Below are positions 1 through 63,038 of a stretch of 64,000 nt of DNA, piece after piece. A program made the position numbers and the translations under genes. The notes under the pieces were generated by a model. The model did no database searches and was not told the origin of the DNA. It was given only the letters and a program-made list of their open reading frames with translations. Source of the stretch: a virus; IMG/VR virus record IMGVR_UViG_3300011115_000575, positions 1 through 64,000 of that record. One strand, 5' to 3'. Position 1 is the stretch's first letter, and the number at the start of each line of letters is the position of its first letter.

Positions 1-543
1 ATATTGTTGTAAAAGTAATTATGCTTCAGCAGATGGCAAGCAAAGCATAGTGTTGCTAACGTGTCAGCATTTTGTTAACGTTTATTTTCTACTAGCATTT
101 TTTTTATACTGTGGGCTTGGAGTGACAGGGTTATATATATTATTGGGATCCGGCAGAAAAAATCCGCGAAATCAGAAAATTTGACCGAGTGGGTATTGAA
201 TTACATTTTCAAAAACCTAATTTCCGAGATCTCAAAGCACTTTTTATACATAAAATATGTTTCAACATATACACTGGAAGATGACGGATCAATACTTCTT
301 CTCTCAATTACTTTTGCCAAAGCAGATAGATAAGAAGAACGAACTATCCGCTCGAACATAAACACTAAAACATTTTTACTACCTATCCAATTACATTTCG
401 ATTCAATTACATTTCCATTTTGATACAAATTATTTTGGAGCACAAATCTGACCTAGCAAAATCCATTCAATTACATTCTTCTGACCTTAAAATTTTTCTT
501 ACTATAGGAGCACCAATTTAAAACAAAAGTATTACCTTTACAT
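1..543. other. Left-edge region without a convincing gene
   Basis: No reading frame here looks like a real gene. The stretch holds one copy of the CCGGATCCC 9-mer (145-153, as its complement GGGATCCGG) and four copies of an AATTACATT-type word. It may be the regulatory end of the early transcription unit that begins with the gene at 544. No Bacteroidota-type TAnnTTTG element was found directly upstream of 544. Confidence 0.5.
199..477. repeat. Dispersed AATTACATT(T) repeats
   Basis: AATTACATTT or CAATTACATT occurs at 199-208, 388-398, 404-414 and 468-477, all on the plus strand of a non-coding stretch. The related words CAATTACTTTTTTAG and CAATTAGATTTTTAG recur in the non-coding regions near 3831, 4057 and 5314, and CAATTACATTTT occurs at about 6426 between two genes. 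In AT-rich DNA such words can arise by chance. Their concentration in intergenic DNA suggests a shared binding or leader element. Confidence 0.35.
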
Positions 544-840
544 ATGAGCAAAAAAGGTCAACATCTGAATTTACTTAATCCCTTGAATATCAAGGTTTTA
601 GATGATAATCCGTTATGCTCGATTACACTAGTTTACACAATTTTTAAACAATCAAATCCAATTACAATGACAAAATTTCAATTCTTAATCGTTACTTATT
701 TCGAAGATGGTAATGTAAGCACAAGGCAATTAGTTAACATCCGTAGAAAGCGATTTGATTCTGCTGAAAACTACATCAAAACCAAATACAAAGGTTGTGA
801 TGGTTTCTTCGTAGAGTTAAACAATTCTTGGTCAATCTAA
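544..840 (+). CDS. Hypothetical protein, 98 aa
   Basis: Not recognised. The product is a small, mildly basic soluble protein. Its C-terminal half (residues about 66-90) carries a basic stretch followed by a Tyr/Gly/Phe-rich segment. The start ATG at 544 follows an A-rich leader without a Shine-Dalgarno sequence, as for most genes here. It is the first gene of the rightward cluster containing the amidoligase and glutamine amidotransferase. Confidence 0.55.
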   Translation: MSKKGQHLNLLNPLNIKVLDDNPLCSITLVYTIFKQSNPITMTKFQFLIVTYFEDGNVSTRQLVNIRRKRFDSAENYIKTKYKGCDGFFVELNNSWSI

Positions 841-871
841 ATCAATTTCAAACAATCAAAACAAACACAAA

Positions 872-1033
872 ATGAAAAAGCAATTTATCCCAATGTTCGC
901 CATCGCTCAAGGTCTAATTCCAATGACTATTTTTTGTGCAAAGCATAATGGTTTTGCAGAAGCAATTTTCTGTGTTATTGCCTATGTCGGCATTAGCATT
1001 CTTACAATTTTTATAGGTCAAAAAGAAAACTGA
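872..1033 (+). CDS. Small hydrophobic protein, 53 aa
   Basis: A short reading frame with an ATG behind an A-rich leader. The product has two hydrophobic segments, residues about 5-21 and 31-49, separated by a short hydrophilic stretch (CAKHNGFAE). This suggests a small integral membrane protein with two helices. It lies 31 bases after the preceding gene and 41 bases before the amidoligase, in the same direction. The function is unknown. Confidence 0.5.
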   Translation: MKKQFIPMFAIAQGLIPMTIFCAKHNGFAEAIFCVIAYVGISILTIFIGQKEN

Positions 1034-1074
1034 TTTAACTAAACAATTCAAACACAATTTAAACAATTACAATT

Positions 1075-2796
1075 ATGAACGTAACAACAATTTTTGGACA
1101 ATCAATTCACGAAGAATTAACATCAAAATTACATTCTTCTTATGGTCAAAATCAATTCATCAATTCATATGATATGACAAGAGATTCGAATTCAAATGAA
1201 TTTAAGAAAGTTACTTGGGCTTATTACTTTAATGAATCTAATCACATATGGCAAAGAGGTTTCTTCATGAAATCTGATTGCGTTAGATATCATCGTAATC
1301 CAAATAATGAGGGGAATACATACATTGCTAATATATCATTGGTACATACAATTAAAATACAATATGCTGATAAGACATTATACTTTATGTCGCATGAGCA
1401 AAGATTTAATGCGGGATATGTGTATTCATTAGATGAGCATAGATGGTTAGATTTAAAAGTAACTGACAAACATATGTTTGGCGATTTGGTTTTGATTCGC
1501 AAAGCCAATGACAAAATGGATTATGTCGCAAAGAAATTTGCTACCATATATGAATCAATGATTTCAAGTTTAGTAAGAACTAGGAATACGGTTTCAATGT
1601 CACAATGTCCAAGTAAAAGATTCGTTTTGCTTGTTACATTTGACCATCAAGATGTTGTTACTTGTTTCATAAGCAATAATAGATTTTTAAGAACGGATTG
1701 TCGTGAATACTATGTAGTAGATTCTCATGGAGTAAATGAATTGATACACATATCTCATGGTCAAGCAATGAGATTAATTTGGGGAGAATCATATGAATTC
1801 ACAATGATGGATGGAGATAGTATTTATTTCAGATACAATCCGATAATACATGATGGCATTTATTATTTCGATATGAATTCTGCCATTGTAAATGGATATG
1901 TGGATAGAATTTGTCCAATCTGTTCTTCAACATTAGATGCACAACATGATGCAGATGTTTGTGCAAGAAGAAACCATAAGAATCCTCGTTATGATTATCA
2001 CAGAGATTTTACGGTTAAGCAGATTCAATTAGAGCAAAAATTTGTATTCAAAATGGGAGTCGAAATTGAGAAACAATCTTATCTTGGTAGTAAGCATTCG
2101 AATGTATCTATAGGTCAAAGATTCGGTTGGAAGAAAGAAAGGGATGGCAGTTTATGTGATACAATCGGATATGAATTAGTTAGTCCATGTTACCCATTGT
2201 TTACTGATGATTTAATCAATGAGGCAAAAGAAATTGAGTTAGCATTCCCTAACTTAATCAATGGCAATGACCATGATTTAATTAGCCATTCTCGTGGCAA
2301 TTCCGCTTGTGGAGGACATATACATTTCTCTCGTAGTTACACATCTGCAAAGGATACATTCGAAATGATTAGTGGTTATATCCCTTTGTTTTATGCCATC
2401 TATCGTAAACGTAGTGAATCAGATTATTGTGGTGCTAAAGAGAAATTAAGAATGAAAGGATCTACCGAGAAGATGCAAGCAGTTCGAATCATCGAAGATA
2501 TCATTAATCCTCGTATTGAATTCCGCATCTTCCCATTAGTAAAAGACATTGACCAATTACAATGGCGAATTGATTTACTTAGAATCATGGCAATGAATCC
2601 AACTAACCGATTCAATGAAGTTGCCAATATGCTAACTGATAAGGAATCAGATTTATATAAGCATATGACAAAAGAGTTTAGCCCAAGCAAAATCAAGCAA
2701 AGGATATTAGATTCTATTGACATGGCGAAGAGATACGATAGGGATTTCTATTCATTCGATTTCTCTTCTATTAGAAATGCAGTTAACAATATGTGA
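1075..2796 (+). CDS. Amidoligase-like enzyme (GCS/glutamine synthetase fold), 573 aa
   Basis: The C-terminal half matches the carboxylate-amine ligase (amidoligase) superfamily with the glutamine-synthetase/GCS fold. It has GVEIE at residues 328-332 (metal-binding acids), RDGSL at 356-360, YELVSP shortly after, CGGHIHFS around 412-419 and PRIEFRIF around 479-486 (E482 and R484). Family members use ATP to join a carboxylate to an amine or ammonia. The N-terminal half (1-275) is not recognised. Between the halves lies a possible zinc site: C280, C283, H291, C296 and H301. The next gene is a class II glutamine amidotransferase, which could supply ammonia. The family call is fairly secure; the substrate (cell wall, protein or nucleotide) cannot be read from the sequence. 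Confidence 0.75.
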   Translation: MNVTTIFGQSIHEELTSKLHSSYGQNQFINSYDMTRDSNSNEFKKVTWAYYFNESNHIWQRGFFMKSDCVRYHRNPNNEGNTYIANISLVHTIKIQYADKTLYFMSHEQRFNAGYVYSLDEHRWLDLKVTDKHMFGDLVLIRKANDKMDYVAKKFATIYESMISSLVRTRNTVSMSQCPSKRFVLLVTFDHQDVVTCFISNNRFLRTDCREYYVVDSHGVNELIHISHGQAMRLIWGESYEFTMMDGDSIYFRYNPIIHDGIYYFDMNSAIVNGYVDRICPICSSTLDAQHDADVCARRNHKNPRYDYHRDFTVKQIQLEQKFVFKMGVEIEKQSYLGSKHSNVSIGQRFGWKKERDGSLCDTIGYELVSPCYPLFTDDLINEAKEIELAFPNLINGNDHDLISHSRGNSACGGHIHFSRSYTSAKDTFEMISGYIPLFYAIYRKRSESDYCGAKEKLRMKGSTEKMQAVRIIEDIINPRIEFRIFPLVKDIDQLQWRIDLLRIMAMNPTNRFNEVANMLTDKESDLYKHMTKEFSPSKIKQRILDSIDMAKRYDRDFYSFDFSSIRNAVNNM

Positions 2797-2804
2797 TTGT
2801 GTAT

Positions 2805-2826
2805 GGGGAGATGAAATATTCTCCCC
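2805..2826 (+). terminator. Intergenic hairpin, possible weak terminator
   Basis: A perfect 7-bp stem (GGGGAGA / TCTCCCC) with an 8-base loop starts 8 bases after the amidoligase stop codon. No T-tract follows, so it is probably a weak terminator, an mRNA 3'-end stabiliser or a processing site between the amidoligase and the amidotransferase gene. Confidence 0.4.
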
Positions 2827-2901
2827 TACAACAAATTCCACTATCAGCAATTCAATTACTCAAACACAATTATTTTTCAAACAATTTAAATTATAACTAT
2901 T

Positions 2902-3705: not shown

Positions 3706-3727
3706 TACCAATTCTTAATTCATAGTA

Positions 3728-5344: not shown

Positions 5345-5992
5345 ATGAAAAGAGTATTAGTAGCTTGCGAAGAGAGTCAAGCAGTCACATTAGCATTTCG
5401 CAAATTAGGTTTTGAAGCCTATAGTTGCGACATATTACCATGTAGCGGAGGTCATCCCGAATTCCACTATCAACAAGATGTGTTCGAAGTAATCGACAAA
5501 GGTTGGGATTTAATGATTGCACATCCACCATGTACCTACTTATCAGTAAGCGGTGCAAGACACCTATATAATAAAGATGGCACACCAAACGAAGAAAGGT
5601 ACGAGAATCAGAGGCAAGCATTAGTATTTGTCTATAAGCTAATGTTGGCGAACATTCCACGGATTGCGATTGAGAATCCCGTATCAGTCATATCATCGAA
5701 ATTGCGTAAGCCCGACCAAATCGTTCAGCCCTATTGGTTTGGAGATTCAGCGAGCAAGACTACTTGTTTGTGGCTAACTAATTTACCAAAGTTAGTGCCT
5801 ACAAATATGGTTGAGAAAGGGAAGTTCAAAGAATGGGTTGATGGGAAGTCGGGGAAAACTAAACGACAAGCGATGTGGTATTACGAAGCATTGCAGAAGG
5901 CGAAGTCGCCCGAAGAACGTAGAGGAATGAGAAGTAAAACATTTCAAGGCATTGCCGATGCGATGGCGAGCCAATGGGGTGCAGTATTGTAA
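5345..5992 (+). CDS. DNA cytosine-C5 methyltransferase-like protein, 215 aa
   Basis: The compact C5-methyltransferase-type protein has an N-terminal AdoMet-binding start (VLVACEESQAVTLAF, residues 4-18), the catalytic HPPCT motif with Cys63, and the IENP motif at 109-112. A WFGD-to-TCLWLTNLP region follows, as is common in phage-encoded members. It would transfer a methyl group to cytosine in DNA, perhaps to protect phage DNA from restriction. At 215 aa it is much shorter than bacterial Dcm-type enzymes and has little room for a target-recognition domain. An inverted repeat ends 4 bases upstream of the start. A second, distinct family member is encoded at 18348. Confidence 0.75.
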   Translation: MKRVLVACEESQAVTLAFRKLGFEAYSCDILPCSGGHPEFHYQQDVFEVIDKGWDLMIAHPPCTYLSVSGARHLYNKDGTPNEERYENQRQALVFVYKLMLANIPRIAIENPVSVISSKLRKPDQIVQPYWFGDSASKTTCLWLTNLPKLVPTNMVEKGKFKEWVDGKSGKTKRQAMWYYEALQKAKSPEERRGMRSKTFQGIADAMASQWGAVL

Positions 5993-9587: not shown

Positions 9588-11014
9588 AAAAATCATCCCA
9601 AATTATTGACACAATGCTTGAGCAAGACTTGATAGCCTACTTGCTTGAGAATTCTCATAGTATTAATGAAGTTTCGAAAGTTATAACATCTGAATCCTTT
9701 ACTGATCCATTGTTTAAGGCATCATTCTTTGCGATGGTTGACTTATCTTTAGATAAAGGTCTATTCACACGATTCGATGTATTTCGATTGCTTAAATCAA
9801 AGGAATCTGAATTAGGAATAAATTCTTCAAAGCTAATTTCGGTAATGCCTAATCGTTCTATCGATTCTATGCAAGTCGCATTTGCTTTAAAGGAGTTAGA
9901 GAATAAGAGAAGAATCTACGAGATGGCTGTTAGTCTTGTGTCGTGTATAGAAGATGGAGAAGAAGTTTCCACGATGACCACACTAATAGAGAATGGCTTA
10001 ACGGATATGATTGATGCCTCCGCATCTAAGGAAGTTTATGGTATCGACCAAATCTATGATGAAGTAATTGCAAAAATGGAAGCTTCTGCTGGAAGTGAGA
10101 AAACTTTTAGTGGCATCGACACCGGATCCCGAAAATTAAATTATGCGTTGGGCGGGTGGCAAGAAGGTATGTCAATCGTATCTGCAAGACCATCGATGGG
10201 TAAGACTATAGTTGGACTTGACTTTGCTAAAGCTTGTGCTAAATCGGGAAAGAAGTGTTTGTATCTATCTCTTGAGATGCCGAAGGAGTCGTTGATTTAC
10301 AGATACATTTCATCAGAAGCATTTGAATACAATTACTCTGACCTAAAGGCTAATCGGATTAAACCCGAAGATGTCGAGAATATTAAACGTTCAAAAGCAA
10401 GGGAGTTAAAGAATCTTCCTATTTACTTTTATGATTCCGATAACAGGGATGTCAATTACTTATCAATGATGATGACTGCCGAAGTTCGCAAGAATGGAAT
10501 TGATATGATTGTAATTGATTATTTACAGCTTATGGGGGATAACCAAGTTAAAGGGCAAGATGATTTTACTCAAGTATCTAAAGTAAGTAATAAGATTCAG
10601 AAGCTAACAAGGAAGTTAGGCATCCCAATCATTTGTTTATCGCAGTTGTCAAGGTCGGTTGAGTCAAGGGCTAATCGCCAGCCTATGCTATCAGATTTGC
10701 GGTCATCGGGCAATATTGAACAAGATGCTATCGTTGTAATTGGATTATATCGTGATGATTATTACAAGTATGTTGACGCAAAATCTAATAACCAACCCGT
10801 TGCCCCTATGGATAATACGTTGAAGTTTATTATTCTAAAGAATAGGGATGGCGAAGTCGGAGATGTAAACAGATTTGTTGATGTTAAAACTAATCGAGTT
10901 GCTGATAGTGAAGAAGAACTCTTTCAGTTTACAAAGCCAGAAATATTATATCAGAATTCTGTATTAAATATTATGCCAAATGATTTTTCAAACGAAACAA
11001 TAGCCCCATTCTAA
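9581..11014 (+). CDS. Replicative DNA helicase, DnaB family, 477 aa
   Basis: The protein has the DnaB/RecA-type helicase core: Walker A SARPSMGKT (residues 201-209, Lys208), LYLSLEMPKE, the Walker B-type MIVIDYLQLM, the CLSQLSRSVESR motif and the SDLRSSGNIEQDA arginine-finger region. The N-terminal helical domain (about 1-110) and linker are also present, so the gene looks complete at normal DnaB length. It would unwind DNA at the replication fork as a hexamer. The start overlaps the initiator gene by 7 bases. One copy of CCGGATCCC lies in its codons for T-G-S-R at 10122-10130. No primase or DNA polymerase gene was recognised in the window. Confidence 0.92.
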   Translation: MVKKSSQIIDTMLEQDLIAYLLENSHSINEVSKVITSESFTDPLFKASFFAMVDLSLDKGLFTRFDVFRLLKSKESELGINSSKLISVMPNRSIDSMQVAFALKELENKRRIYEMAVSLVSCIEDGEEVSTMTTLIENGLTDMIDASASKEVYGIDQIYDEVIAKMEASAGSEKTFSGIDTGSRKLNYALGGWQEGMSIVSARPSMGKTIVGLDFAKACAKSGKKCLYLSLEMPKESLIYRYISSEAFEYNYSDLKANRIKPEDVENIKRSKARELKNLPIYFYDSDNRDVNYLSMMMTAEVRKNGIDMIVIDYLQLMGDNQVKGQDDFTQVSKVSNKIQKLTRKLGIPIICLSQLSRSVESRANRQPMLSDLRSSGNIEQDAIVVIGLYRDDYYKYVDAKSNNQPVAPMDNTLKFIILKNRDGEVGDVNRFVDVKTNRVADSEEELFQFTKPEILYQNSVLNIMPNDFSNETIAPF

Positions 11015-12081: not shown

Positions 12082-12855
12082 ATGAATGTATACAAAGAGT
12101 TAGCCAAATTTAAAGGCATCAAGTATTATGATGAGCCACATAAGTATTTTATAGGCGAGCAAGAACTTACATCAGGAACTGCATTCATTGGAGGGTTTAA
12201 AGAGAAGTTTGATTCTGAAGGTCAGTCAGTTAAGTCAGCCAAGAAGAAAGGTGTATCCGTAGAGGAAATACTTGCAGATTGGGACTTTAAAGGAGATTTT
12301 TCTAGAACTAAAGGAACTCTTTTGCATAACTATGCAGAGAATTATTGGCAAAATAAAGTGTTGCCACTTGACTACACTATTTATGATGAAAAGTTTGGCG
12401 AAGGCTTAATGAAAGAGAGGCTTGAGGAATGCATTAGAATGTTTCATAATTTTTATAATGAATCTAATTCAGCATTAATCCCTATTGCACTAGAGCTTGT
12501 GATTGGAGACGCAGAACTTGGAGTGGGAGGAATGGTTGATGGATTATTTTGGAATCAAAAGCACGGAGAGTTACAGATTTGGGATTATAAGACTAATAAA
12601 GAAATAGCTGAATACTCCAAGTATAAAAAGAGAATGAAGATACCAATCAATTTTCTTCACGATTGCGAGCTTGAAGGGTATTCAATTCAGTTAAATCTAT
12701 ATAAGTATATCATAGAAAGAAATACAAACTTAAAAATCGGCAAATGCTACCTTGTGCATATCCACGAAGAACAAGAGAAGTATAATGTAATCGAGTGTAA
12801 AGAGTACCAACATATTATTCAATTATTATTTGACTATAAAACCAAACAAAAATGA
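12082..12855 (+). CDS. RecB-like PD-(D/E)XK nuclease, 257 aa
   Basis: The protein matches phage RecB/Cas4-type nucleases. It has GTLLHNYAE (helix with motif I His), then LELVIGD with Glu138, GGMVDGLF with Asp153, the WDYKTNK motif with Asp168 and Lys170, and the downstream YSIQLNLYKYIIE helix. These make up the metal-binding site of the fold. Such enzymes process DNA ends in recombination or replication. It lies among the replication genes, and a Cys cluster for an Fe-S site is not visible. The next gene overlaps its end by 4 bases. Confidence 0.75.
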   Translation: MNVYKELAKFKGIKYYDEPHKYFIGEQELTSGTAFIGGFKEKFDSEGQSVKSAKKKGVSVEEILADWDFKGDFSRTKGTLLHNYAENYWQNKVLPLDYTIYDEKFGEGLMKERLEECIRMFHNFYNESNSALIPIALELVIGDAELGVGGMVDGLFWNQKHGELQIWDYKTNKEIAEYSKYKKRMKIPINFLHDCELEGYSIQLNLYKYIIERNTNLKIGKCYLVHIHEEQEKYNVIECKEYQHIIQLLFDYKTKQK

Positions 12856-16715: not shown

Positions 16716-16856
16716 ATGAATTCATTTAATCAAGTGTGGGCAAATATCCACCATCAATTAGAATTGACTCATCGAATTAAGATTGAGCAAGCAAAACTAA
16801 AGTTCAAATTAGAAAAAGAAAATGAAGAAAGACTTAATAAAAAAGCTAAGAGCTGA
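16716..16856 (+). CDS. Small coiled-coil protein, 46 aa
   Basis: A short, highly charged helical frame that starts 1 base after the previous stop and overlaps the XRE-type gene by 35 bases. That overlap is long, but without it a 107-base gap would be left. Confidence 0.4.
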   Translation: MNSFNQVWANIHHQLELTHRIKIEQAKLKFKLEKENEERLNKKAKS

Positions 16857-17046
16857 ATTGGGGATGACTCTATCAGAATTTGCAAAAGCATCGGGAGTTA
16901 ATTCATTTCAACAAATATGGTTATATGAATCAGGAAAAAGGCAACTTGGATACAATCTACTTAATCGTATTATCTGTACTCTTGCGTCTAATGGATACTT
17001 AGTTTCGCTTGATATAACTGTCATGATTAACGATAAAAAACTTTGA
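16822..17046 (+). CDS. XRE-family HTH regulator, 74 aa
   Basis: A helix-turn-helix of the Cro/CI (XRE) type spans most of the protein: LIKKLRAELGMTLSEFAKASG, then NSFQQIWLYESGKRQLG. It is a DNA-binding regulator without an extra domain, so it may be a small repressor or Cro-like switch. It is one candidate binder for the repeat elements elsewhere in the window; no evidence ties it to them. Confidence 0.75.
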   Translation: MKKDLIKKLRAELGMTLSEFAKASGVNSFQQIWLYESGKRQLGYNLLNRIICTLASNGYLVSLDITVMINDKKL

Positions 17047-17047: not shown

Positions 17048-17257
17048 ATGGAAGATGCAAGATTTGATAAGTTGTTGTATACAGACAAGGAACTTAGAGG
17101 GATGTTGGGGATTACTGCAAGGAAACTTGCTCATTATCGAAAGGAAAAGTTTATTGTTTATATAGATACAAAGCCAATTCGCTATACAAGGAAAATGATA
17201 CAAGACTTTTTAGAATATGTTAACAAGTATCCCGGATCCCTAGTTTCTAAAAAATAA
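17048..17257 (+). CDS. Excisionase-like HTH protein, 69 aa
   Basis: Small MerR/excisionase-type helix-turn-helix: YTDKELRGMLGITARKLAHYRKE, then an RYTRKMIQDFLEY helix. No integrase was recognised in the window, so the protein is more likely a regulator than an active excisionase. A CCGGATCCC copy at 17232-17240 encodes P-G-S near its C-terminus. Confidence 0.6.
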   Translation: MEDARFDKLLYTDKELRGMLGITARKLAHYRKEKFIVYIDTKPIRYTRKMIQDFLEYVNKYPGSLVSKK

Positions 17258-17852: not shown

Positions 17853-18351
17853 TAATTATCAGCATACATTGTCTGAATTATTTATGAAGGAAGTCTACTC
17901 TACTAACAAGGAGCAATACGACAAAAGAAACCAAACACAAAGAAGTAAAGTCGAATCAGATATTTACATTGGTAAAATGGCGGAGTTTGCGGTATGGAAT
18001 TTCCTTGTAAATCAGAGTAAGTTAGCGACATTCCCCGATATCGGAGTGTACCCTAAAGAATTGAAGTCATTTGATGCAGACATCACATCTGGCGATGTAA
18101 AGATTCACGTCAAGTGTTGTATGGAAGTGTGGGATTATCAGAACTCTTGGGTATTCCAACCTAATGATTCTTTATGCACATCTCCATCCGAAAAAGAATT
18201 CATCGCCTTTGTTATCTGCTCGCCCGATAAAAAGTTTGAAGCATATTTTGTTTTAGCTTCAAAAGTAATTGGGATGTATCGACCTCCAAGAAAAGAAAGT
18301 CTCGACAAGAAAGTAATTTACGAAGAAAATCTAATGGTATTAGAAGTATGA
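17818..18351 (+). CDS. PD-(D/E)XK-fold nuclease-like protein, 177 aa
   Basis: The pattern is consistent with a PD-(D/E)XK endonuclease: a helix with Glu56 (GKMAEFAVWNFL), Asp88 in the FDADI strand, and a second strand with His97-Val98-Lys99 (KIHVKCC). The HVK in place of (D/E)XK is non-canonical but known variants exist. Its last bases overlap the start of the C5 methyltransferase (ATGA), so the two may form a restriction-modification-type pair, or the nuclease could be a homing or packaging enzyme. The start overlaps the resolvase gene by 35 bases and could lie further in. Confidence 0.55.
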   Translation: MLLKKVKLIAPNNYQHTLSELFMKEVYSTNKEQYDKRNQTQRSKVESDIYIGKMAEFAVWNFLVNQSKLATFPDIGVYPKELKSFDADITSGDVKIHVKCCMEVWDYQNSWVFQPNDSLCTSPSEKEFIAFVICSPDKKFEAYFVLASKVIGMYRPPRKESLDKKVIYEENLMVLEV

Positions 18352-19019
18352 AAGTATTAGAATTGTTTGCCGGATCCCGTTCAATAGGTAAAGCTGCTGA
18401 AGAATTAGAGATGGAAGTATTCTCATCTGATCTCTTACCATTTGATGGGATAGATTACGCTTGTGACATCAGAGAGTTTGATTTAGCAAAGCTACCATTT
18501 GTTCCCGATGTAGTATGGGCATCCCCGCCTTGTACGGCATTTTCTGTTGCCTCAATAGGCAGACATTGGAAGGGAAGTAAGAAAGGCTCTTATGTGCCAT
18601 TTACTGACTCCGCAAGACTTGGCTTAGAATTACTTGATGCAACACTAAAAGTAATTGAGCAGATTAATCCGAAGTTTTTCTTCATTGAAAATCCACGAGG
18701 ATTAATGAGGAAGATGCCTCAGCTTGAGCACTTTTATAGGCACACAGTTACTTATTGCCAGTATGGGGATACGAGGATGAAGCCTACAGATATTTGGCAC
18801 AACCAAGTGTCGTATCAACCAAAGCCACATTGTAATAATGGAGACCCTTGCCATACTCCTGCACCAAGAGGTTCGCAGACAGGAACACAAGGATTAAAAG
18901 GAGCTTATAATAGAAGTAAAATACCACACGAGTTTTGCTTAGAAGTAATGGAGTTCTGCAAGAAACAGAATGAAACTTATTTACTTTTTCCCGCCACGAG
19001 ACCTTTTATCGCCCGCTGA
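18348..19019 (+). CDS. DNA cytosine-C5 methyltransferase-like protein, 223 aa
   Basis: The C5-methyltransferase hallmarks are the AdoMet motif VLELFAGSRSIGKAAEE (residues 3-19), the catalytic ASPPCTAFS motif with Cys62, and IENPRG at 113-118. The TYCQYGDTRMKPTDIWHN segment fits the later conserved region. It differs clearly from the enzyme at 5345, so the phage encodes two distinct C5-type enzymes. A CCGGATCCC copy at 18370-18378 encodes A-G-S-R in the AdoMet motif. The 3' end overlaps the minus-strand gene at 18981 by 39 bases. The PD-(D/E)XK-like gene directly upstream suggests a paired function. Confidence 0.8.
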   Translation: MKVLELFAGSRSIGKAAEELEMEVFSSDLLPFDGIDYACDIREFDLAKLPFVPDVVWASPPCTAFSVASIGRHWKGSKKGSYVPFTDSARLGLELLDATLKVIEQINPKFFFIENPRGLMRKMPQLEHFYRHTVTYCQYGDTRMKPTDIWHNQVSYQPKPHCNNGDPCHTPAPRGSQTGTQGLKGAYNRSKIPHEFCLEVMEFCKKQNETYLLFPATRPFIAR

Positions 19020-23800: not shown

Positions 23801-26800
23801 AGGCACGGGCAGACTGAAGTAAATCAATGTCTATTAAATCAGCTTTGTCAACTCCTGTTTTTGCACGAATAGTTTGTTGCTTTGTAATCTTAATTGCATT
23901 GGCATCGAATACAACATAATTCATTAACCCATCTTGTCTTCCTCCTTGAGCATAATATGTAGGAACTCTAATTCCATCAACTCCAGCTTGCTGTAATAAC
24001 CAAGAAGCCATTTGTTGTGCTGTAGTTAAAAAATTATCTCCAGATTTATTAGCATAAGGCATAGATGCGAATCGATACTGAATAGATTCATACACATCAG
24101 ACCCATTTTGAGACAAGAATTGCAACCCCTTACCTCCTCCATTATATTCGTTTAAAATAAAATTAATTACACTTAATGAGTCTTTAGTATATTGGTCTTT
24201 ATAAGATAGCATCTGCATTGCCCTTTGCATACTTAAAAGCCCCGCAAACGCAGTTGTTGCTGCTTGTTGATTATAAGGACCAGAACGATGCCAATCAAAC
24301 CATACTCCATCACTAACTCTTTGCCCTGTAACGTGAGCTGTATAATGATTTCTTTCTCCGAATGCATTATACAATTTCTCTCGATTAGATTTTGAAATAC
24401 TTAATCCAAGAAATCCTTTATTATCTTCTAAGAATCTTTTCCAATCTGCAAGTCTTGTATTTGGATTCTGCAATATTTTATATGCTTTTTTCTGCAAATC
24501 CTTTCCTAAAAAATCAAGGTAATTTAATCTATTCATTTTATTCCCTTGATTACTCATAGCATATGCATTAGCAACATCAAAGTCTTCACTTAAATAGATT
24601 CCCCAACCATACGCTTGAGCACCTTCTCCTGTTCCAATTTTCTGATTATTAAATCGGGCAAAACTCCAAGGGGATCCGTGATAAAGGATTCTCTTTTGAG
24701 ATATGAATTCTACTTTATTGTCAGAACCATCTGTAACTTCTTCCTCAATTTCTTTTGAAATTACTTTCTCAGAAACAGGCATCATTTTATAATTAGCTTT
24801 TGCTATCTCAGACTTTGCCTCCTCTGTTGGAGCAAAACCAATTCCTTTTGCCACATTTGTAGCTACATTAGGGGCTTTTGGTCTTAACAACCCTTTAGGA
24901 GCAAGATATTCTTTTTTGAATTTAGACTTAACTGTGCCTTTTAAATCAGAGTATGTTCTTGTTTCAAAGGACTTATCACGAGATTCTTTTTCATAGAACT
25001 TATCTTCAGTATAGATATCTCTAACCATTTGATCCCTCTCTGCTTCAGTTAATTTATTAGGGTCTATTTCCGATTCTGGCTCTGCAAATTTTGCAAAGTT
25101 TTCGTTTACTCCATATAATCCATCAAGAGTGAAATGATTAGTACCAGCAAGTTTAGCATTAAACATATCGTGAACAATACCTTTAGATTGCAACGCTTCA
25201 ATTTGGTCGTCACGTTCTATTCCTTCTGGCAATACATCTAATTCAAATCCACCTACTACATACCCTCCTTTGTCATTATTAATTAAATCATCGGTTAATA
25301 TTGTATTATCTCCGTATTCTTTAAGGAAATTATAAAAACTATAATCAATTTTATTAAATGCTATTTTACTATATCTTGTCCCGACATCAGTTTTTGTGCC
25401 TGAATTTTTAGGTAAAATCCCAAGTCCAATAACTTTTCTTACATCGAATGTAGTTTTGTCAATATATTCTTGCTGCAAATCCGCTAATACTTTTTCAGAC
25501 ATATTAGGAGTAACCTTATTGAATATATCAATTATTTGCTGTCTTTCTGTTTTATTCTTTGCTACTTTGCTAACAGTTGTACTTGTATTGATAAAATTAG
25601 CAATAGCTTCCTTTGATTTAATTAAATCCTCTTCACTTGTATTTGCAATTTGAGATAATCCTCTGAATAAATATTTTACTCCGTAAGCATTATTGATTGC
25701 AGTAGAGGGATTTTGAATCATAATTAAAACTGCAACTTTCCCTTGTCCGTAACTATTAAATGCAGCAGTATATGTACTTTTTACTGTACTTACATTTAAA
25801 CTTGCAAATCCAATTCCATCTTTTACGTTCTGAGCATTTAATGAAAATCCAAATCCTCCAAAGATTGGCTCTCCTTTGCTGTCAACACCGTATCCTGTAG
25901 CATCACTTGTAATAATAACAACTCTTCCATTATATTTCTCAACAACATCGTTAAGGCTCATAATAGGATGAGATACAGTCTCAAGCATAGGAATAGTTTT
26001 AGGGAATTCATAATCCCCTATACGTTTTTCGTTTATTTCATCTAACGGAGTATAATCAATTTCAGATGGGAATGGTATAGCAATACCTTCATCATATGTC
26101 TGGTCCGAAGATATCTTTTGACTAATCTCATCCGATGAAGCAGTTACACCTTCTTTAGTAAATTGCTTTGTGAATTCCATATTCACATCTGTTCCTTCTC
26201 TTAAAGATTTTGCAAATGATTCAAAGAATTTAGCAAGTTCTTCGGTTGAATTTGTGGTAGCACCTACTTTGTCAGCAAGCTCCATTAGTAACTTATTATT
26301 AATCTTAGCAGCGTACTTTTTAACAAGCTCACGAAGCCCCAATATAAATTTTTGACCAATTGAGCGATTTAAAGCAAAGTCTACTTCAACAACAATATTT
26401 TCTCCCGCCTCATTTACTTTTGAAAATGATAATCTTTTAGCAGTAAGTACCCCAAGTAATTCAGATAAGAATTCTTCTGCCATTACATTTTCTCCTTTTT
26501 CTGCATATAGATTAGAGAAGTTTTGTAAGTAAGAAAGTTCAGCCTTAGAAAGCATCCCTTTTAATTTATTAACCATCTCAACAAATGCTGCTGGGTCAGA
26601 ATCTCTTATAAACTTAACTGCTTCGTGGAATATCTCATGAGGAACAGTTGCGTCATCTGCAATAGATATGTTGATATGAACAACACCACTATGCTGTAAT
26701 CCCATTGATCCTTTAGCAGCTTCTCTTGCCCTTTTAGCAGTAAATCCTTGAGCAACAAGCCCCTTTGCCATTTTCTTTTCACTATCATACAATATGATTT

Positions 26801-31822: not shown

Positions 31823-34800
31823 TTACGAGTGTCCAGATACGGGAGCAATCTCAACATCAATTGAGTTAATCCTCATATTCTGGCTTTTATCTTTTAAAGT
31901 TACAACAAATTTATTTAGATAGCCAACAATATAGTCTCCTTCTATGATAGCATTAGGCACTGCAACTCCACCTCTTTGGCTATTAGCATCTCTTAGAATA
32001 TGAGCATATAAGCGATTATCTTCCATTAAAAAGTTTGATTCAACTAAACTAGTTGCTTGACCATTTTCATTTGTAATATCAATAGTAAGTAAATTAGATT
32101 TAACATAATTAGTTGTTACACTCCAATCTACTACATTCATATCATGAGTAACAGATACATTTAATGGATGAATAGGTAGTCTACTGTTTAATGTAAATGT
32201 AATTGAACCATTGTATTCTGTGCCAAACAAATGGTTATAGTCATTTGTAGTTGTATTAGCAATTGGCTTATACATAACACCACTTTTAAATAATATTATC
32301 TTATCCCCATAACTTTCAGCAAAATCACTTTTTAAATTATATGATTCAGCAATCCATCGTTTAAGATTATCCGAATAGCCAGCAGATGTTGTATCAGAGC
32401 CAATTGCTACATAACACATATTATAAAACGGGTCATATGAAAAATTAGCTACACCGGATTTGGCTAGAAAATACGAACGCATATAAGTATCACTTACTAT
32501 TTCTAATCCATCAGGGGTATATTTAACCACTTTTTTATTAAAGTCATCCCACCACCATATATTACCTTTATAGTTCATTACAGAGGTTTTATCAAGCATC
32601 CCTAGGTTATTACCAAAGTTTCTGATAGTACCAATCATATTATTCGTAAGGGCATATACTGAAGAATTATTTCCTTGAGATAACTCTTGTTCTCCCATCA
32701 TAATATATGCCGATTCTTTTTGGCACAATACAAGTAACATTGAGCCATTCCCTTGTAAACGTGACGCTCTTTCCAATCCAGTTATTTCTCCATTTTCAAT
32801 AGCTACATCATTTGAATCTAAAGCAAAAAATGAACAAGTATTATTAATATTGGTACCTGATACATAGTTACCTCCGTAACGAATAGTATTAGTTCTTCGT
32901 GTCGATACTGAAGAAGTAGATATTATAGATGGTTTCCCCGCAGATGTATTCCAATATTTATTTGATGTTGCATTAGATATTGAACGAATAAGATATTTTG
33001 TATTAGTAGTTGATACTGTAGAATTGTTATCGTAAGTAGTAATTACCTTTGGTATAGTTCTATTGCCGTTTAATGTAATATTTATACCATAAGTTGAGCT
33101 AGATGTTTTAGATATTGTTATCTGAGAAGAAGAAACATCGCCTGTAGATATCAATGATAAAGCCAATTCAATATGAAATTTATCATTTGCTTCAAAAGGT
33201 TTTGTAATGCCCGTATTAAGTTCAATAATTTGTGTAGCTAATGCAGGTTCTGTTGTTCCTCCCGAACCCGTATCAGATGTTAATGTTGCTTGAGGGAAAA
33301 CATCAAAACTTTTACCTATTTTTTCTGAAGCTACATCATATTTATTTGTTGTATTATTATATGGTGTTCTAAATACTTGTGCTTTTAAAGACCAAGTTGC
33401 ACTACCACCTGCTCCGCCACCATTTAATATAAGTACTTTTGTAGCCGTTAGATTATACACAACAGTCAATCTATTTGTTCCCGCTTTTTGAACTCCAATA
33501 TCATAAAATCCAGCTATTTTAAATGCAGAACTGCTATCTACAATAGTAGAAGAATCCCCATTTGTAGAAATATTTACAATTGTAGGAATATCTGTTTTAT
33601 CTGTAGGAGAACCGGATCCCGCAGTACTATTTGCTAAAGAATTAATATTTGCATTTATAACCGTAATTATATTTTCATCAATACCTGCACCAATAATAGC
33701 AGGAACAGTCCTTTGTGTATTATATAAGAATGGAGCGGTTGTATATGTAGGCATTTCTAATTTAGAAAATACTGCATCTCCAATAAATTTAGATGCAGCA
33801 CCATTATTTAATGTGCCTGTAGCAGAAACAGTTTTTGATGAACTTGCTGCCCACGCAGATATATCAATTAAATTTCCGTATTCATAAAAAACTAATGATT
33901 GGTCTTCTTGAATTTGTTTTGGAGTATATATTTCAAAATACAATAATTTAGGATCAGGGATTGTAGTATTTGTCATTGCTCCACCCGTATATTCGCAATA
34001 AATTAAATTATTATCTTGCCCTACAATTTTTAAATCTAATAATCCATTAGGAGTATTAACTGTGATTCTATCTCCTTGTTCAACTGTATAAATATATCCA
34101 GCACGATACATTCCCATTAAATCAACTACAAAATATTTTATACTTTTAAGTTGATCCGCTGTAACAGATTGACTTGAAACCAATAATTCAGTTGTAGCTT
34201 TAGTTACAAGATTAGTATCTGTTTGAGTTACTTGAAAGTAAATATTACTTGCGTACCCTTCATAGAAGTAAGATTTACTTATGTTCTTTGTATAAACTAA
34301 TTGAGCAAACTTTGCCCAAGATGGCTTTACATATCCCGCATTTAATGTAACCGTAAATGTTGGGATAATCGGATACGCAAAATTACCTGTAGTAAACTTT
34401 TCAAACTTTTCTACTCCACGAGTTTTTAAAGCTGAATCATAAAATGCAATACCAACTCCGTAAACAGAATTGTTTACAAAAGGCTTTACATAATCACTTC
34501 CTGTTTCAGAACTTGTAGGAGTTGTTAATGGAGAACCTGATATATAAGAATTATATAATCCTCCACTAGGTAGTGTATATCCGCTTGCTGAGGATAATGT
34601 AAAATCTAAATTAGCAGATGACATATCATAATCATCTTTTATGTTAGCAAGAAATATTCTATTCTTAGCTATCTCAATATGTTTTGCATTAACAGGTACT
34701 GCATCATAAGGATTTCCAGTAGTTACAATGTCAAGACTTTCGTATGTCTGCCCAACCCAAGTAAATGTTGCTATAGTAGAAATTAATTGAGTACTAATTC

Positions 34801-35537: not shown

Positions 35538-36296
35538 TTAATTCTTTATACTTCCGTGAATACCTCTTCTTGTAGCTCCAATGATATCAGCATAATCCAT
35601 TGAATTCATTCTAGCTCTAAATATTCTACGAGCATTATCGTACTCTTGTTTAGCTAATTGATATTTGCCTAACGTAGTACCTTCAGCTTTTACCGCCATC
35701 ATTTGTATGTATTTTGTAATTACATCTGTAGCGTAAGGTGTTACGAGATTAGCTGTAGACCTAGATACTGCAGAAGTAATATATGATAAAGTAACTTCCG
35801 TAAGAGCCATTGTATTTGAAAATACAATTTCAGAGTTAGTTGTATCAATATCATACACCAATAATGGCTTGCGTTGTTTACCATAATACCTTCCAACTAA
35901 TTCCCCTCTTGTATTTAAATTATTTGCACCAGAAATTAAGTTATAATTAAATTCTGCATCATAATTAATGTTAGTATCAGTAGGATACGGGATCCGGTTT
36001 CCACTATCATCATAATTATAAATTTTATTTAATGCTCTATCTCTTTCTAAAGGAAGTAATCTTTCTCCGTGTTTTGCTGAAACATCAACTACATCAATAA
36101 AATCATTAGGAAGAACAGCTCTTTGATAAGAAGTTGTACTCAATACCACCATTTTAACATTACCCATACTAAAGTCCATTGACAACTCGTCTGTAATCCT
36201 TAGTGCGTGGTGTAAGTACCTTGTGTAGTAATGAAGAGGAAGACCGTTGTCTAACAACGCATCTCTAACAATTATATTTATAGACTTAGTTTTCAT
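35538..36296 (-). CDS. Head-to-tail connector or ring protein, 252 aa
   Basis: Not a firm family match. The N-terminus (NIIVRDALLDNGLPLHYYTRYLHHALR) and C-terminal RRGIHGSIKN tail resemble adaptor/ring proteins of Bacteroidota podoviruses. It lies between the nozzle gene and another ring-type gene. A copy of the 9-mer at 35989 encodes N-R-I-P here, in sense with the gene. Confidence 0.55.
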   Translation of the reverse strand: MKTKSINIIVRDALLDNGLPLHYYTRYLHHALRITDELSMDFSMGNVKMVVLSTTSYQRAVLPNDFIDVVDVSAKHGERLLPLERDRALNKIYNYDDSGNRIPYPTDTNINYDAEFNYNLISGANNLNTRGELVGRYYGKQRKPLLVYDIDTTNSEIVFSNTMALTEVTLSYITSAVSRSTANLVTPYATDVITKYIQMMAVKAEGTTLGKYQLAKQEYDNARRIFRARMNSMDYADIIGATRRGIHGSIKN

Positions 36297-55301: not shown

Positions 55302-56120
55302 TTACCCTAAACGGGTCTTGATGGCATTAAGCTCATCCGGATTGTTTTCTTCTAGGTAGTCAGCTAATTCCTTAATGTAATTCTTATTAGGAGATTTTTT
55401 GTATTTAAAAATTTCCTTTTCAGTATCTGACCATTCAAACACTTGTGAATTTACATTATTTTTTATAATTCCTTGTTTAATAGCTTCTTTTAAAACAGAT
55501 TCTACTCCAAGAGATGCTCTTTCAACAATTGACATAAATTCTTCTGGATTTGTTTCTGCAAAATCTTCTAATTGATTGCGTACTTCATCTAATGATTCTG
55601 CTTCAATTCCAAGTGCCATCCCAACTTCTTTAGCTCTAGTGTCATCTAATTCTAAAGCCATATTAATTGCTTTCACTATCAACTTTCTAGTTGTTCTTTC
55701 TTCTATAGCTTCTTTCTTATTATCAACTCTATAAAAAACCGGATCCCCTTTTTCTTCACTTCTATCTTTATTAGAAGCATTGTAATTACATAATTCAAGA
55801 AATTGATACATCTTTTGATGAACCGAATTATTCCCATTCAAAAATATGTAACCAAGATTATTTGCAGAAAAAACTATGCTTAAAAAAATAGGTTCGCCCT
55901 TATCATTTTGGCTTTCTATTGCAGCTATATTTACAAACTCCCCTTTTTGTTTATCAAATACTTGATCACTAGATGGGATTTGGTGAGCGGCAGGAATTAA
56001 AAACTTACCGTAATTATCGGGATCAGGTCTTACATTTAAAACCCTATAAGTTGCCCTTTCGTCTTGTTTAAGAACTCTCTTCATAGAAGGAGAGAAGTTA
56101 TTGTATTCTGATGCTTTCAT
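55302..56120 (-). CDS. Capsid-adjacent structural protein, 272 aa
   Basis: Not recognised at family level. The N-terminal part is a mixed fold (YRVLNVRPDPDNYGKFLIPAAHQ), followed by acidic helices (ELDDTRAKEVGMALGIEAESLDE). Coming directly after the major capsid protein, it may be a head accessory protein. One CCGGATCCC copy (55739) encodes G-D-P. Confidence 0.6.
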   Translation of the reverse strand: MKASEYNNFSPSMKRVLKQDERATYRVLNVRPDPDNYGKFLIPAAHQIPSSDQVFDKQKGEFVNIAAIESQNDKGEPIFLSIVFSANNLGYIFLNGNNSVHQKMYQFLELCNYNASNKDRSEEKGDPVFYRVDNKKEAIEERTTRKLIVKAINMALELDDTRAKEVGMALGIEAESLDEVRNQLEDFAETNPEEFMSIVERASLGVESVLKEAIKQGIIKNNVNSQVFEWSDTEKEIFKYKKSPNKNYIKELADYLEENNPDELNAIKTRLG

Positions 56121-58648: not shown

Positions 58649-58668
58649 ATATATATTGTTTGGTTACG

Positions 58669-58676: not shown

Positions 58677-58680
58677 TAAA

Positions 58681-60978
58681 CTATTTTTTATAATCTGACA
58701 TTTTAATAGCAGATTTCTTTATCTCTGCAATATACTCTCTTGAGTCAGCTTCTATTTTACTCATATCTATTTTACCAGACATTTTCATTTGCTCAATTTG
58801 TGCTTCCATTTGAAGTTTCATTAGAAGCATTTGCGATTCAAGCTCTTTTTCTTTTTGAATAACCGCCATTTTAGCTTGAGTTTCTATTTGAATAGTCTGC
58901 TGTTGCATTTGAGCTGCTACTTGAGCAGATTGTTGCTGAATCTGACCATTCATTTGTTGTTGTTGCATTGACCTTTCTTGAGCATCTTCTTGGTTCTTAC
59001 TTATTTTGTATGCTAATAATAATTCAGCATACTTTAAGTTATCCAAATTTTCAACCATCATTGCGTCAGCCAATGTTATTTGCCCCGCTTGTATTGCCTG
59101 CTCAATTCTTCTATCTAATTTTTCTCTATCTGCTTCTGTTGGTTTTTGTTCGATTATCAAACCACATTCGTAAGCAGAAACATTAGGATCTAACTTAAAG
59201 AATTGAACTGTATTAGAACCTAATGCTCTAACAAATCCATCAATAGTCCCCATTTGAGCAGCATCTTGAATTCTTAAAGTTAACGAATAGCATAACCTCT
59301 CTAGTAAGTTTCTTTCAGAACGCTTAATATAGTCAAGAGAATTATTTGTTGATTCAGATGCATACTTGGCTACTCCCTTTAATGTGCGGGGATCCGGCGT
59401 TGAACCATCTGTAATCTCATTAAACCCTAATATATCTCTCAATAATTGAATATTGTTTGTAATAATATTAAAGTATTGTACAGCTTCATTCCCAATACCG
59501 TTTTCAAGTTCTTCAATTGGTTTGTAGTTACTTGCTTGCCCTTCATCATTTAATCTACGATAAACTAAATTTCCAGTTTGATTATATAAATCTATAACAT
59601 CCATTGGTTTAAGAGCTTTGCCTCCTCTACCAATTGGCACATTTTCCAATGCACCTAACTCTATCATTATACCTCTTGGTCTTGCCCTAAGCATTACATT
59701 TTGTAATTTATACCAAGCCATTTGTATCTGGTCCGCAATTGGTTTCATTTGTTCACCTAATGAATAGGTGTTCATTTGATATAATTGTGGAGCAACAACG
59801 TGATAAGATAAAGTAGTTTCAGTCATTGAAGACTTAGCCCTCTTCATATTTGTAGCTAATTGGCAATCAAAAAACATATCAGAATCAATAATCCATTTAC
59901 CTTGATACACAACTTTATAATCAGTTTTGGTATATTTCTTATCTGACTTATTGTTTTTTATTTTACTTGCTCTACCTACAACTGTATTTCCTTTTGAGTT
60001 AACTCTTTCTTCTTGTATAAAATGATTTACAGAATAAAACTCCAAGTCAAGAACTCTAATTCTAAAACCATCATAGTTTCTATTTTGGTTTGAGTTAACA
60101 TTTTTAAGTAACGCAGGATTTCCTAATTTATTTGTATACTTAGCTGCAATTATTTCGTATTGAGCTTCTGTAATTTGATCTCCCGCAAGTTCTTTAAGAT
60201 CAGAAATTGTCATCTCAAGTACTTCTCCAAAATATTGAACATCTTCAAAATTCGGATCAATAGCATATGACATAACCATATTTGCTGGAGATACATGGCG
60301 GGTTTTAATTGTACCTGACCTATCAAAGTATTCTTTGTAAGCAGTAATACCGTAATCAATTAAGTCTTCAACTGCTTTTTCTCTTTGTTGAGGAAATTTG
60401 TTTAAACTTAATATTAATTCCAACGCTTGCTCCATCTCAATTGCCATTCTATGCTTATATGAATAGTTCATATACATATCAAGCTCCTTTAATGAAGAAG
60501 CATCAACATCGGGGTCTGGCACCAAACTTGGGTCAATCCCTTGTTTTTTAAATTCTTCTTTTACTATAAGTGCAGATGCATTCTTTGCGTAAAATTCTTT
60601 TTTATCGTCTTGTGCTAACGGGTCAATTGCGTCAACAGAAATAGTATAGTCGGCTTTTAATAAAGTAGCTAAAGCTATTCTTCTAAACTTTGGGATAATT
60701 GGTAATATATCCCAGTTAATATTAATCCAAGATTGGTCTTCGTTAGCAACTTGATTAGGTTGAAATAACTTCTTATATCTACTTACCGATTGTTTCCCAA
60801 GCATATACAACTTGGTTTCATGGTACTTATCTCTTCCGTTATAAAGTTGATTAGGATAATAAGTTGAAAAATCCATCCAAGCGGATTTTATATATTGAGC
60901 AATCCATTTTTTATCCTTTTGAGAAGAATCTAATAGGTGGCTTGGAAAACCAAGTGTCGAAGTTACGTTATCATCCAT
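58681..60978 (-). CDS. Portal protein, 765 aa
   Basis: The protein forms the portal ring at the head vertex. It resembles crAss-like and related portals: an N-terminal helical region, ITAYKEYFDRSGTIKTRHVSPANMVM (short phrase), then a wing/stem region and a long Gln/Met-rich helical C-terminus (barrel). Gene order terminase-portal-scaffold-capsid and the length support the call. A CCGGATCCC copy at 59389 encodes P-D-P. Confidence 0.8.
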   Translation of the reverse strand: MDDNVTSTLGFPSHLLDSSQKDKKWIAQYIKSAWMDFSTYYPNQLYNGRDKYHETKLYMLGKQSVSRYKKLFQPNQVANEDQSWININWDILPIIPKFRRIALATLLKADYTISVDAIDPLAQDDKKEFYAKNASALIVKEEFKKQGIDPSLVPDPDVDASSLKELDMYMNYSYKHRMAIEMEQALELILSLNKFPQQREKAVEDLIDYGITAYKEYFDRSGTIKTRHVSPANMVMSYAIDPNFEDVQYFGEVLEMTISDLKELAGDQITEAQYEIIAAKYTNKLGNPALLKNVNSNQNRNYDGFRIRVLDLEFYSVNHFIQEERVNSKGNTVVGRASKIKNNKSDKKYTKTDYKVVYQGKWIIDSDMFFDCQLATNMKRAKSSMTETTLSYHVVAPQLYQMNTYSLGEQMKPIADQIQMAWYKLQNVMLRARPRGIMIELGALENVPIGRGGKALKPMDVIDLYNQTGNLVYRRLNDEGQASNYKPIEELENGIGNEAVQYFNIITNNIQLLRDILGFNEITDGSTPDPRTLKGVAKYASESTNNSLDYIKRSERNLLERLCYSLTLRIQDAAQMGTIDGFVRALGSNTVQFFKLDPNVSAYECGLIIEQKPTEADREKLDRRIEQAIQAGQITLADAMMVENLDNLKYAELLLAYKISKNQEDAQERSMQQQQMNGQIQQQSAQVAAQMQQQTIQIETQAKMAVIQKEKELESQMLLMKLQMEAQIEQMKMSGKIDMSKIEADSREYIAEIKKSAIKMSDYKK

Positions 60979-60980
60979 AA

Positions 60981-63038
60981 TTAAAACGGAAATACATCTC
61001 GTATTTCATATAGTTTTTGTTGTTGTTCAATCTTTTGAGTAAACTTTGATTTACTCGATGCAATTAAGGTATAACCACTCGCCATTGCTGCATCAAATTT
61101 AGTTGTTTTATTTATATCAAAGTGCAACCAATCGTTTAAAAGTTTTGGAAATTTTACTTTATGTAAATTATCCATTATATAACTTTCTGTTTCCTCGGCT
61201 ATCTGTTGGTGCACCTTTGTGCTAGCAGATATACCATACTTAGTAGAATTGGGCATTTTAATTAAAAACTTTTCGTATCCTCTATATTCAAAGTACTTAA
61301 TTAAACCAATTTTTTGATCCTCAGAAAGTATTTCACAACCAAAAAAATGGCACAACTTAATCATATCCTCATAAAATATTTCTGCTTTATCAGGTCTATT
61401 TAAGTATTCAATTAAAAATGTTTCACTCAACTCATCTGTTGCATCAAATCTCCTATAGACATATGCTGCTCCATCAGAACGTTCATTGCTTGTTGTTATC
61501 GAATGGTCAAAGGGGTCAACTCCAATTGCATATTTTGTTTTAGCTTTTGGTGTTTTCTTTGTGCCATACTCCTCAACTTGGTTATATGAATCAACGTCTT
61601 GTGGGTTTACTTCTTTTATTACAAGAAACTTACCCGTAGAACTTTCTTTAAAAATAACCTTGCTATCACGAACTCCATCTTCCCAGATAAATTCTCCTTG
61701 CAAATATAATTCTTTTTTATCAATCCACGATATTGTTTCAATTTGCCTATTGATTGCCATTGCATCATATAAGCAAGTCTCTCCTTCACTAAAGAATGCC
61801 TCCTCAATAGTAAATGGGTTTTTACGAATATAAGATGCTAATGCTCTACTATCAGATGACAACGCATCCCTTGCATTTATATAATAATCTTTTGCTTTTT
61901 CTTCGTCTGCAAATCCATACTTATCGTAGAATAGTGTTTTATAGGCGGGCATAAAGTATTGGTATAGCCCTGACATTGTTCTTCCATTCTTATCTCTTTT
62001 GGATTGGTCTGATGCCATCCAAAGTTGTTTAAAAGATGCTCCCCCATCTTCCATCTCCTCAACAGTAGTAGTATATAAAGCCTTACCAATAATATTTTCT
62101 TCTTGTTGTAAACAAAATTGAACCACTTGATGACGGTCATAAACATCAACATTCTTTGTTTTGCCCGCTTCATCCGCAAGGTATCTATGTAATTTCGTTC
62201 CATCGTATGAGAATTTATCTGCTGACTTAAATGTAATGCTTGACTCAAGTTCTATCTTTTTATCAAAATCAAAATCAGATGCACCCCTCTTATTTGTTTT
62301 AAAGAAACGAAGTTCTCCTTTAGGGGTCATACCTTTTTCAGTATCGTAAATCGGAATAAAGAAATCGGGTAGGTATTTAAATGGCATTACAACACCTTTA
62401 GCAAAAACGTTTTCTTTTGCATCTTCAAACGTTTTACTTTGTATACCTGCGTTTTTATTTCTACTACGGGAAGTAAGCTCAAATAAAAAAGCACCCGCCC
62501 TCATTGTCTTACCCTGTCTACGTTTTGTTACCTCAATCATTCCTAGACTGCGTGGGTCTTGGCATACATATTCTAAAAAGTAAAAAAACTCTTTGTCCGT
62601 AATACGAAAGTCAGGATACCCTACATCTATTTTCCAATGGACCAGATAAAAATAATGAAGCCCTGTAATATAAGTGGCATGACCATTGTTATAAAACCAA
62701 AATCCATTTAATCTTCTATCCCACTCTTGATTTCTATAGTTCTGAAGCTCACTACTTTGATAATCAGCATTTGTTTTTTGAGATAACATCTCACGCTTTC
62801 TTTTTGCTTCGTAATCATCGGGTGGCAAAGGTCTCTCCCAATACTGATTTTCCTTCCGCATAGACCGCTTAACCGGATCCCTTTTTTCCCATTCATTTGT
62901 GATAATATTATATACCCACCCAATAGGAGGAACATTTACCGTAATCCCATGAATATCAAGTTGTTTTGAATTTTTATGAACTCTATACATATTATAATGA
63001 TTGGTAAATGCCTTTTCTAATTCTATAGCAAACTGCAC
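60981..63038 (-). CDS. Terminase large subunit, 685 aa
   Basis: ATPase motifs: Walker A TKRRQGKT (171-178, Lys177) and Walker B-like YLADEAG with Asp289 and Glu290. The nuclease domain includes GVDPFDHS (around residue 503) and a later Asp-rich region (DWLHFD). It cuts and pumps DNA into the head through the portal. The longest frame begins with a GTG at 63038, overlapping the HNH gene by 16 bases. An ATG 16 codons further in (62990) is an alternative start. The gene order and length fit large terminases of Bacteroidota podoviruses. Confidence 0.88.
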   Translation of the reverse strand: MQFAIELEKAFTNHYNMYRVHKNSKQLDIHGITVNVPPIGWVYNIITNEWEKRDPVKRSMRKENQYWERPLPPDDYEAKRKREMLSQKTNADYQSSELQNYRNQEWDRRLNGFWFYNNGHATYITGLHYFYLVHWKIDVGYPDFRITDKEFFYFLEYVCQDPRSLGMIEVTKRRQGKTMRAGAFLFELTSRSRNKNAGIQSKTFEDAKENVFAKGVVMPFKYLPDFFIPIYDTEKGMTPKGELRFFKTNKRGASDFDFDKKIELESSITFKSADKFSYDGTKLHRYLADEAGKTKNVDVYDRHQVVQFCLQQEENIIGKALYTTTVEEMEDGGASFKQLWMASDQSKRDKNGRTMSGLYQYFMPAYKTLFYDKYGFADEEKAKDYYINARDALSSDSRALASYIRKNPFTIEEAFFSEGETCLYDAMAINRQIETISWIDKKELYLQGEFIWEDGVRDSKVIFKESSTGKFLVIKEVNPQDVDSYNQVEEYGTKKTPKAKTKYAIGVDPFDHSITTSNERSDGAAYVYRRFDATDELSETFLIEYLNRPDKAEIFYEDMIKLCHFFGCEILSEDQKIGLIKYFEYRGYEKFLIKMPNSTKYGISASTKVHQQIAEETESYIMDNLHKVKFPKLLNDWLHFDINKTTKFDAAMASGYTLIASSKSKFTQKIEQQQKLYEIRDVFPF

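Follow-up and report, generated by a model that had tools for sequence, protein, structure and literature searches.

A nine-base word dispersed through the genome of a phage related to Cellulophaga phi38:1 is selected as DNA and may form a recently expanded family of protein recognition sites

The DNA analysed here, referred to as the window, is a stretch of 64.0 kb (64,000 nucleotides) belonging to a 65,707 bp virus record of IMG/VR (IMGVR_UViG_3300011115_000575), which we will call G000. Its portal protein is 27-30% identical, over 83-96% of the length, to the portals of Cellulophaga phi38:1, Flavobacterium elemo phages and Maribacter Panino, and by this sequence homology G000 is tied to phages like Cellulophaga phi38:1 and the Flavobacterium elemo phages. 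Related contigs were found in IMG/VR (n = 35), and the comparison took in 26 members of the group, G000 included, as genomes or large fragments. The G000 contig ends in a 629 bp repeat (window 1-629 versus record 65074-65701) of 88% identity with the first 60 bases identical, and probably represents a circular genome to which a divergent haplotype has been joined; G001, whose portal is 98% identical to that of G000, has an exact 123-base end repeat, suggesting a complete circular map. The main features of the window are collected in Table 1; an exonuclease and a RusA-like resolvase are also encoded. A portal search of genome contigs revealed no prophage or host link. A further repeat, AACCAAACAA, lies at 12840, 15172, 15517 and 55274 (plus strand) and at 58665, 56138, 51409 and 40829 (minus strand), mostly directly upstream of start codons; it is present in many genomes of the group, and is a putative shared leader or translation signal.

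Table 1. Word copies, genes and other features of the window (G-numbers denote genomes of the compared group).
Feature	Position	Strand	Remarks
C5-type DNA methyltransferase	5345..5992	+	common to G001, G004, G005
Second C5 DNA methyltransferase	18348..19019	+	common to G001, G004, G005
XRE (HTH_3) protein	16822..17046	+	alternative candidate reader of the word; in nearly all relatives
Small MerR/excisionase-like helix-turn-helix (HTH) protein, 69 aa	17048..17257	+	candidate reader of the word (guess)
Portal protein	58681..60978	-	
AT-rich box AATAATATATATAACCCT	127..144	-	directly 3' of word copy; core AATATATATAACC
Word copy, divergent intergenic region	145..153	-	conserved in G001 and G005; probably same locus as 65218 of full record
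Word copy, DnaB-like helicase gene	10122..10130	+	TGSR, synonymous with relatives; absent in G001, G003
Word copy, near 3' end of small HTH gene 17048-17257	17232..17240	+	conserved in G001
Word copy, C5 methyltransferase gene, codons 8-11	18370..18378	+	AGSR, synonymous with G004/G005; conserved in G001
Word copy, 1229-aa structural-region gene, opposite strand to gene	33612..33620	+	G000 only
Word copy, 252-aa gene	35989..35997	-	conserved in G001
Word copy, 272-aa gene, opposite strand	55739..55747	+	conserved in G001; one codon gained versus most word-less relatives
Word copy, portal gene	59389..59397	-	PDPR, synonymous; G001 has CCGGATCCT
Word copy, 685-aa gene beside portal, opposite strand	62873..62881	+	RDPV, synonymous; conserved in G001
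One-mismatch copy ACGGATCCC	24671..24679	-	in G001 with the same flanks

The top dispersed word of the genome, ranking first among all 9-mers of G000, is CCGGATCCC. An earlier note had reported nine exact copies in the window and a one-mismatch copy at 24671, in both orientations and in different reading frames, with well under one copy expected from a hand estimate. Every one of these positions was confirmed, all three frames and both strands are in use, and a second one-mismatch copy (CCTGATCCC at 56019), missing from that list, was added. The one-mismatch copies are thus at chance level (2 observed, about 2 expected), so that the word is essentially all-or-none. The full record contains ten exact copies, the tenth at 65218; since the contig ends repeat each other, the copies at 145 and 65218 probably represent the same locus in two haplotypes, and the number of loci is then nine. 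The copies expected by chance number 0.005-0.09: dinucleotide shuffling gives 0.02, and Markov models give 0.053 (order 1), 0.087 (order 2, the most conservative) and 0.005 (order 3, a low value to which the depletion of GATC and CCGG contributes, so that the order-2 and codon-shuffle values are the fair figures). Shuffling synonymous codons, with proteins and codon usage kept, reduces the nine in-ORF copies to a mean of 0.04. The excess is therefore about 100-fold or more on every background tried; no unrelated 9-mer is equally frequent in G000, and among the 26 genomes of the group only G022 and G024 have dispersed words approaching this frequency.

Eight of the nine loci are genic, the exception being the copy at 145, and the word reads in the same direction as the gene at five of the eight and in the opposite direction at three. 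Alignment of the flanks of the 18 sites of G000 and G001 showed conservation limited to the nine bases, by which a larger surrounding repeat was rejected; the base preceding the word is A or G at 16 of these sites. A meaningful uneven spacing of the copies was also discarded, as the largest gap matches chance.

The history of the word can be followed among close relatives. G001 carries eight copies, six of them at the same loci as in G000; some have been gained or lost between the two, with 10122, 33612 and 59389 occupied only in G000, and 46049 and 51534 only in G001. Relatives with 84-90% portal identity carry none (G002, G003 and G004) or one (G005). From G000 to G001 the word is kept at 7 of 10 places where the identity of the flanks predicts 3.0 (P 0.006), and in the reverse direction at 6 of 7 (P 0.005); between G000 and G003, with flanks 68-85% identical, it is kept at none of 7, and three to five of the nine bases differ. 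The same degree of difference holds at most aligned sites of the relatives with 84-90% portal identity, with one gained codon and no other insertion or deletion. Retention in G001 beyond that of the flanks, together with this many mismatches to G003, indicates a recent origin by substitution of a word that is now held. Compared with word-less relatives, the encoded residues are unchanged at four of the eight genic sites (10122, 18370, 59389 and 62873), one residue has changed at 17232, 33612 and 35989, and a codon has been gained at 55739. It had been proposed that selection or spread acts on the DNA word itself, and the part concerning selection, on the DNA rather than on the protein, is borne out: reading frames differ, half of the genic sites are synonymous, codon shuffling abolishes the word, and change at its nine positions was fast with respect to word-less relatives and slow with respect to the word-bearing one. 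We conclude that the exact 9-mer is under selection as DNA, and that point changes created it at arbitrary positions, most of them within genes, in no other lineage than G000/G001, bar one intergenic copy in G005. An origin by insertion or from a mobile element was rejected, since homologous positions differ by substitutions, bar the codon gained at 55739. One G000 copy lies in the helicase gene and one G001 copy in the adjacent replication gene, which suggests that the region, rather than the exact position, may count for placement of the word.

The only intergenic copy, at 145, lies between early-type genes running rightward and structural genes running leftward, next to an AT-rich box whose core AATATATATAACC recurs unaltered in the corresponding intergenic slot of G000-G005, G014 and G035. 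The letters beside this core are variable: G005 has the same nine bases as G000, G004 has TCGGAACCC, and those of G002, G003, G014 and G035 are unrelated to the word. A variable slot beside a conserved box resembles an operator with changing specificity. None of G002-G005, G014 and G035 is enriched genome-wide for its own slot word.

The word contains both GATC and CCGG, which are otherwise purged in this phage group: GATC is absent (versus about 200 expected) in each of G002, G003, G014, G025 and G035, and CCGG, GGCC, GCGC, CATG and CTAG are also absent from G003. Several of the avoided palindromes are partly back in G000 and G001, and 10 of the 15 CCGG of G000 lie inside the word. The expansion of a word built of two avoided sites argues for a positive function. 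GATC has returned in the four genomes with both C5 methyltransferases (G000, G001, G004 and G005), two enzymes 85-95% conserved, far above neighbouring genes, for which PDB sequence searches gave no match; the CTGATC context is not depleted in G004 and G005. As a separate observation, the tail region of G000 (window 36.0-55.7 kb) has a single GATC (47552) and nearly no word copies, and several of its proteins are nearest to those of G035, a GATC-free phage; from this sequence proximity and the near-absence of GATC, the region is probably a recent acquisition.

A scan of the group for dispersed words gave one strong case besides G000/G001. The degenerate asymmetric motif AGNTCGGGGG is common to G022 and G024, with 17 and 14 copies versus 0.08 and 0.05 expected; both are temperate relatives with a tyrosine integrase and an XRE repressor. 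An apparent concerted C-to-T change between the words of both genomes was rejected as an artefact of exact-word counting, a single degenerate motif being present.

The reading we prefer, with a probability of roughly 0.45, is that CCGGATCCC represents a family of DNA recognition sites that is specific to the phage, has expanded recently and serves a putative phage-encoded DNA-binding protein, with a logic like that of stoperators or of P1 operators. Such a protein would bind the word as an asymmetric site that is read strictly; the copy at 145, beside the conserved box in the divergent intergenic region, would act like an operator, and the genic copies might roadblock transcription, or bridge and organise the genome, their exact position mattering little. 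The variation of the slot beside the conserved box between phages supports this reading, as does the second phage pair with its own dispersed asymmetric motif, integrase and XRE repressor. Several observations count against it: the sites are mostly genic and of mixed orientation; degenerate copies are nearly absent, which is unusual for a regulator; the dispersed word is confined to two genomes and is lacking in three close relatives whose XRE protein is similar; and no integrase or clear lysogeny repressor was matched in G000 or G001, an absence weaker for the G000 contig than for the circular G001. As for the binder itself, the most economical guess is the small HTH protein encoded at 17048-17257, or the XRE protein preceding it. 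The former matches Pfam HTH_17 with an E value of 0.0024 (below the cut-off) and a PHROG excisionase with 0.007, and the best PDB matches of its AlphaFold model (pLDDT 80) are MerR-type and excisionase winged helices, none below E 0.04. Its second helix reads TARKLAHYRKEK in G000 and TARRLAHYRKEK in G001 and is different in G002, G003, G004 and G005, and its gene itself holds a word copy; both features point to this protein, in a suggestive manner only since neighbouring small proteins diverge similarly.

A few temperate phages of other hosts are known to have dispersed families of asymmetric sites. The c1 operators of P1, a temperate phage with a known repressor, are likewise asymmetric and scattered over the genome, but longer, degenerate and promoter-linked. 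Cluster A mycobacteriophages carry many copies of one asymmetric word, the stoperator, whose specificity differs between related phages (PMC9283540, PMC6550527). G000 is like these phages (e.g., L5 and TipsytheTRex) in having a multi-copy asymmetric word genome-wide, at nine loci, one of them in a regulatory intergenic region. The stoperators of L5, however, are 13-mers that occupy promoters and the short gaps between genes, follow the direction of transcription and are recognised by an immunity repressor, whereas the G000 word is a near-exact 9-mer, genic at eight of nine loci, of mixed orientation, in a genome without an integrase match. A stoperator-like family of regulator sites, one of the suggestions of the earlier note, is the best fit among them, yet unproven, and the closer analogy fails: because of the genic placement and mixed orientation, we describe the word as a dispersed-operator-like family and do not class it as a stoperator system.

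A trace of a host-specific process had also been suggested. A rival explanation of this kind is a Chi-like signal, read by a host AddAB/RecBCD-type nuclease so as to protect phage DNA or promote recombination, and acquired after a change of host. The word is GC-rich, asymmetric and position-insensitive like phage Chi sites, and its density of about 0.15 per kb is close to that of Chi in phages lacking recombinases, 0.2 per kb (PMC3784561); its gain also coincides with altered restriction-site avoidance, as would follow a host change. Chi is, however, a word of the host genome, and CCGGATCCC was not enriched in the 22 + 396 Bacteroidota genomes (418) in which it was counted, although the true host may differ from those sampled. 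The densest genome (225 copies in 2.35 Mb, GC 64%) stays below the density of the phage, and 480 kb sampled from it hold 44 copies versus 45 expected from an order-4 Markov model. A same-composition control word was similarly abundant in most of the 33 genomes with the highest counts; the reversed control CCCTAGGCC was unusable as it contains CTAG, rare in the bacterial DNA sampled, and CCCGATCCG was used instead. One outlier, G102 (68 copies versus 13 of the control), was set aside because composition explains it (8 versus 6.2 expected in sampled sequence). AGNTCGGGGG was likewise at control level in 158 genomes, and the lack of enrichment of both words in the sampled genomes argues against a host Chi-like signal and favours a phage-encoded reader. 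Furthermore, the phage itself encodes an exonuclease and a RusA-like resolvase, and the excess of over 100-fold is far beyond the approximately 3-fold of Chi in phages, Chi being over-represented about 2.3-fold in the E. coli genome (Bobay et al., 2013; PMC3784561). We regard a host signal of this kind as unlikely.

A link with restriction and modification, in which the word would be the context for methyltransferase protection of GATC and CCGG, or the regulatory site of the enzymes, draws on the two purged tetramers within the word, the share of CCGG that it contains, the return of GATC alongside the two C5 methyltransferases, and the presence of the word in the intergenic slot of G005, which has the same enzymes. 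Protection would nonetheless account for tolerance of the word and not for its more than 100-fold excess over plain composition; moreover, G004 and G005 possess both methyltransferases without dispersed copies, and G007 has many GATC without these enzymes. We therefore consider this link improbable. The simpler idea of a plain modification or restriction target does not hold, since such a site would be avoided in the phage or neutral, yet the word is enriched over a hundredfold with GATC and CCGG depleted overall. At least as improbable is a signal for replication, recombination or packaging read by the phage machinery (priming, a recombination hot spot or genome compaction); the genome-wide, position-insensitive spread and the copy in the divergent intergenic region would suit it, but orientation is mixed, the uneven spacing is no different from random, and the conserved replication and packaging genes are common to word-less relatives. 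The earlier suggestion of a packaging or replication signal finds no specific support. An artefact or templated copying (an assembly error, a linker left from cloning, or a mutational process that generates the word), which the included GGATCC (BamHI site) and the exactness of the copies could evoke, is already disfavoured and very improbable, as two separate contigs share six loci with flanks 4-19% divergent, frames stay open, and the differences are substitutions, several of them synonymous, bar one gained codon.

The preferred reading of a phage-encoded binder can be extended, tentatively and with considerable doubt, to the proposal that separate lineages within one Bacteroidota-type phage group have each evolved their own genome-wide, exact or near-exact asymmetric words, largely in coding sequence, read by a phage protein and insensitive to position. 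If true, a self-marking or genome-organising system would be possible without lysogeny genes, distinct from promoter-linked stoperators. The family in G000 and G001 arose within the divergence of close relatives, which makes each substitution at its birth traceable, and it did so against strong restriction-site avoidance in a phage where no lysogeny genes were detected; identification of the reader would test whether scattered sites are a means by which such phages silence, mark or organise their genomes. Other repeats of the group are local: in G035, clusters of CGAACGTTCG palindromes separated by TTTT/AAAA spacers lie near 43.75 and 51.6 kb, and G014 has clusters of CACCAGAGG repeats near 48.7 and 56.9 kb.
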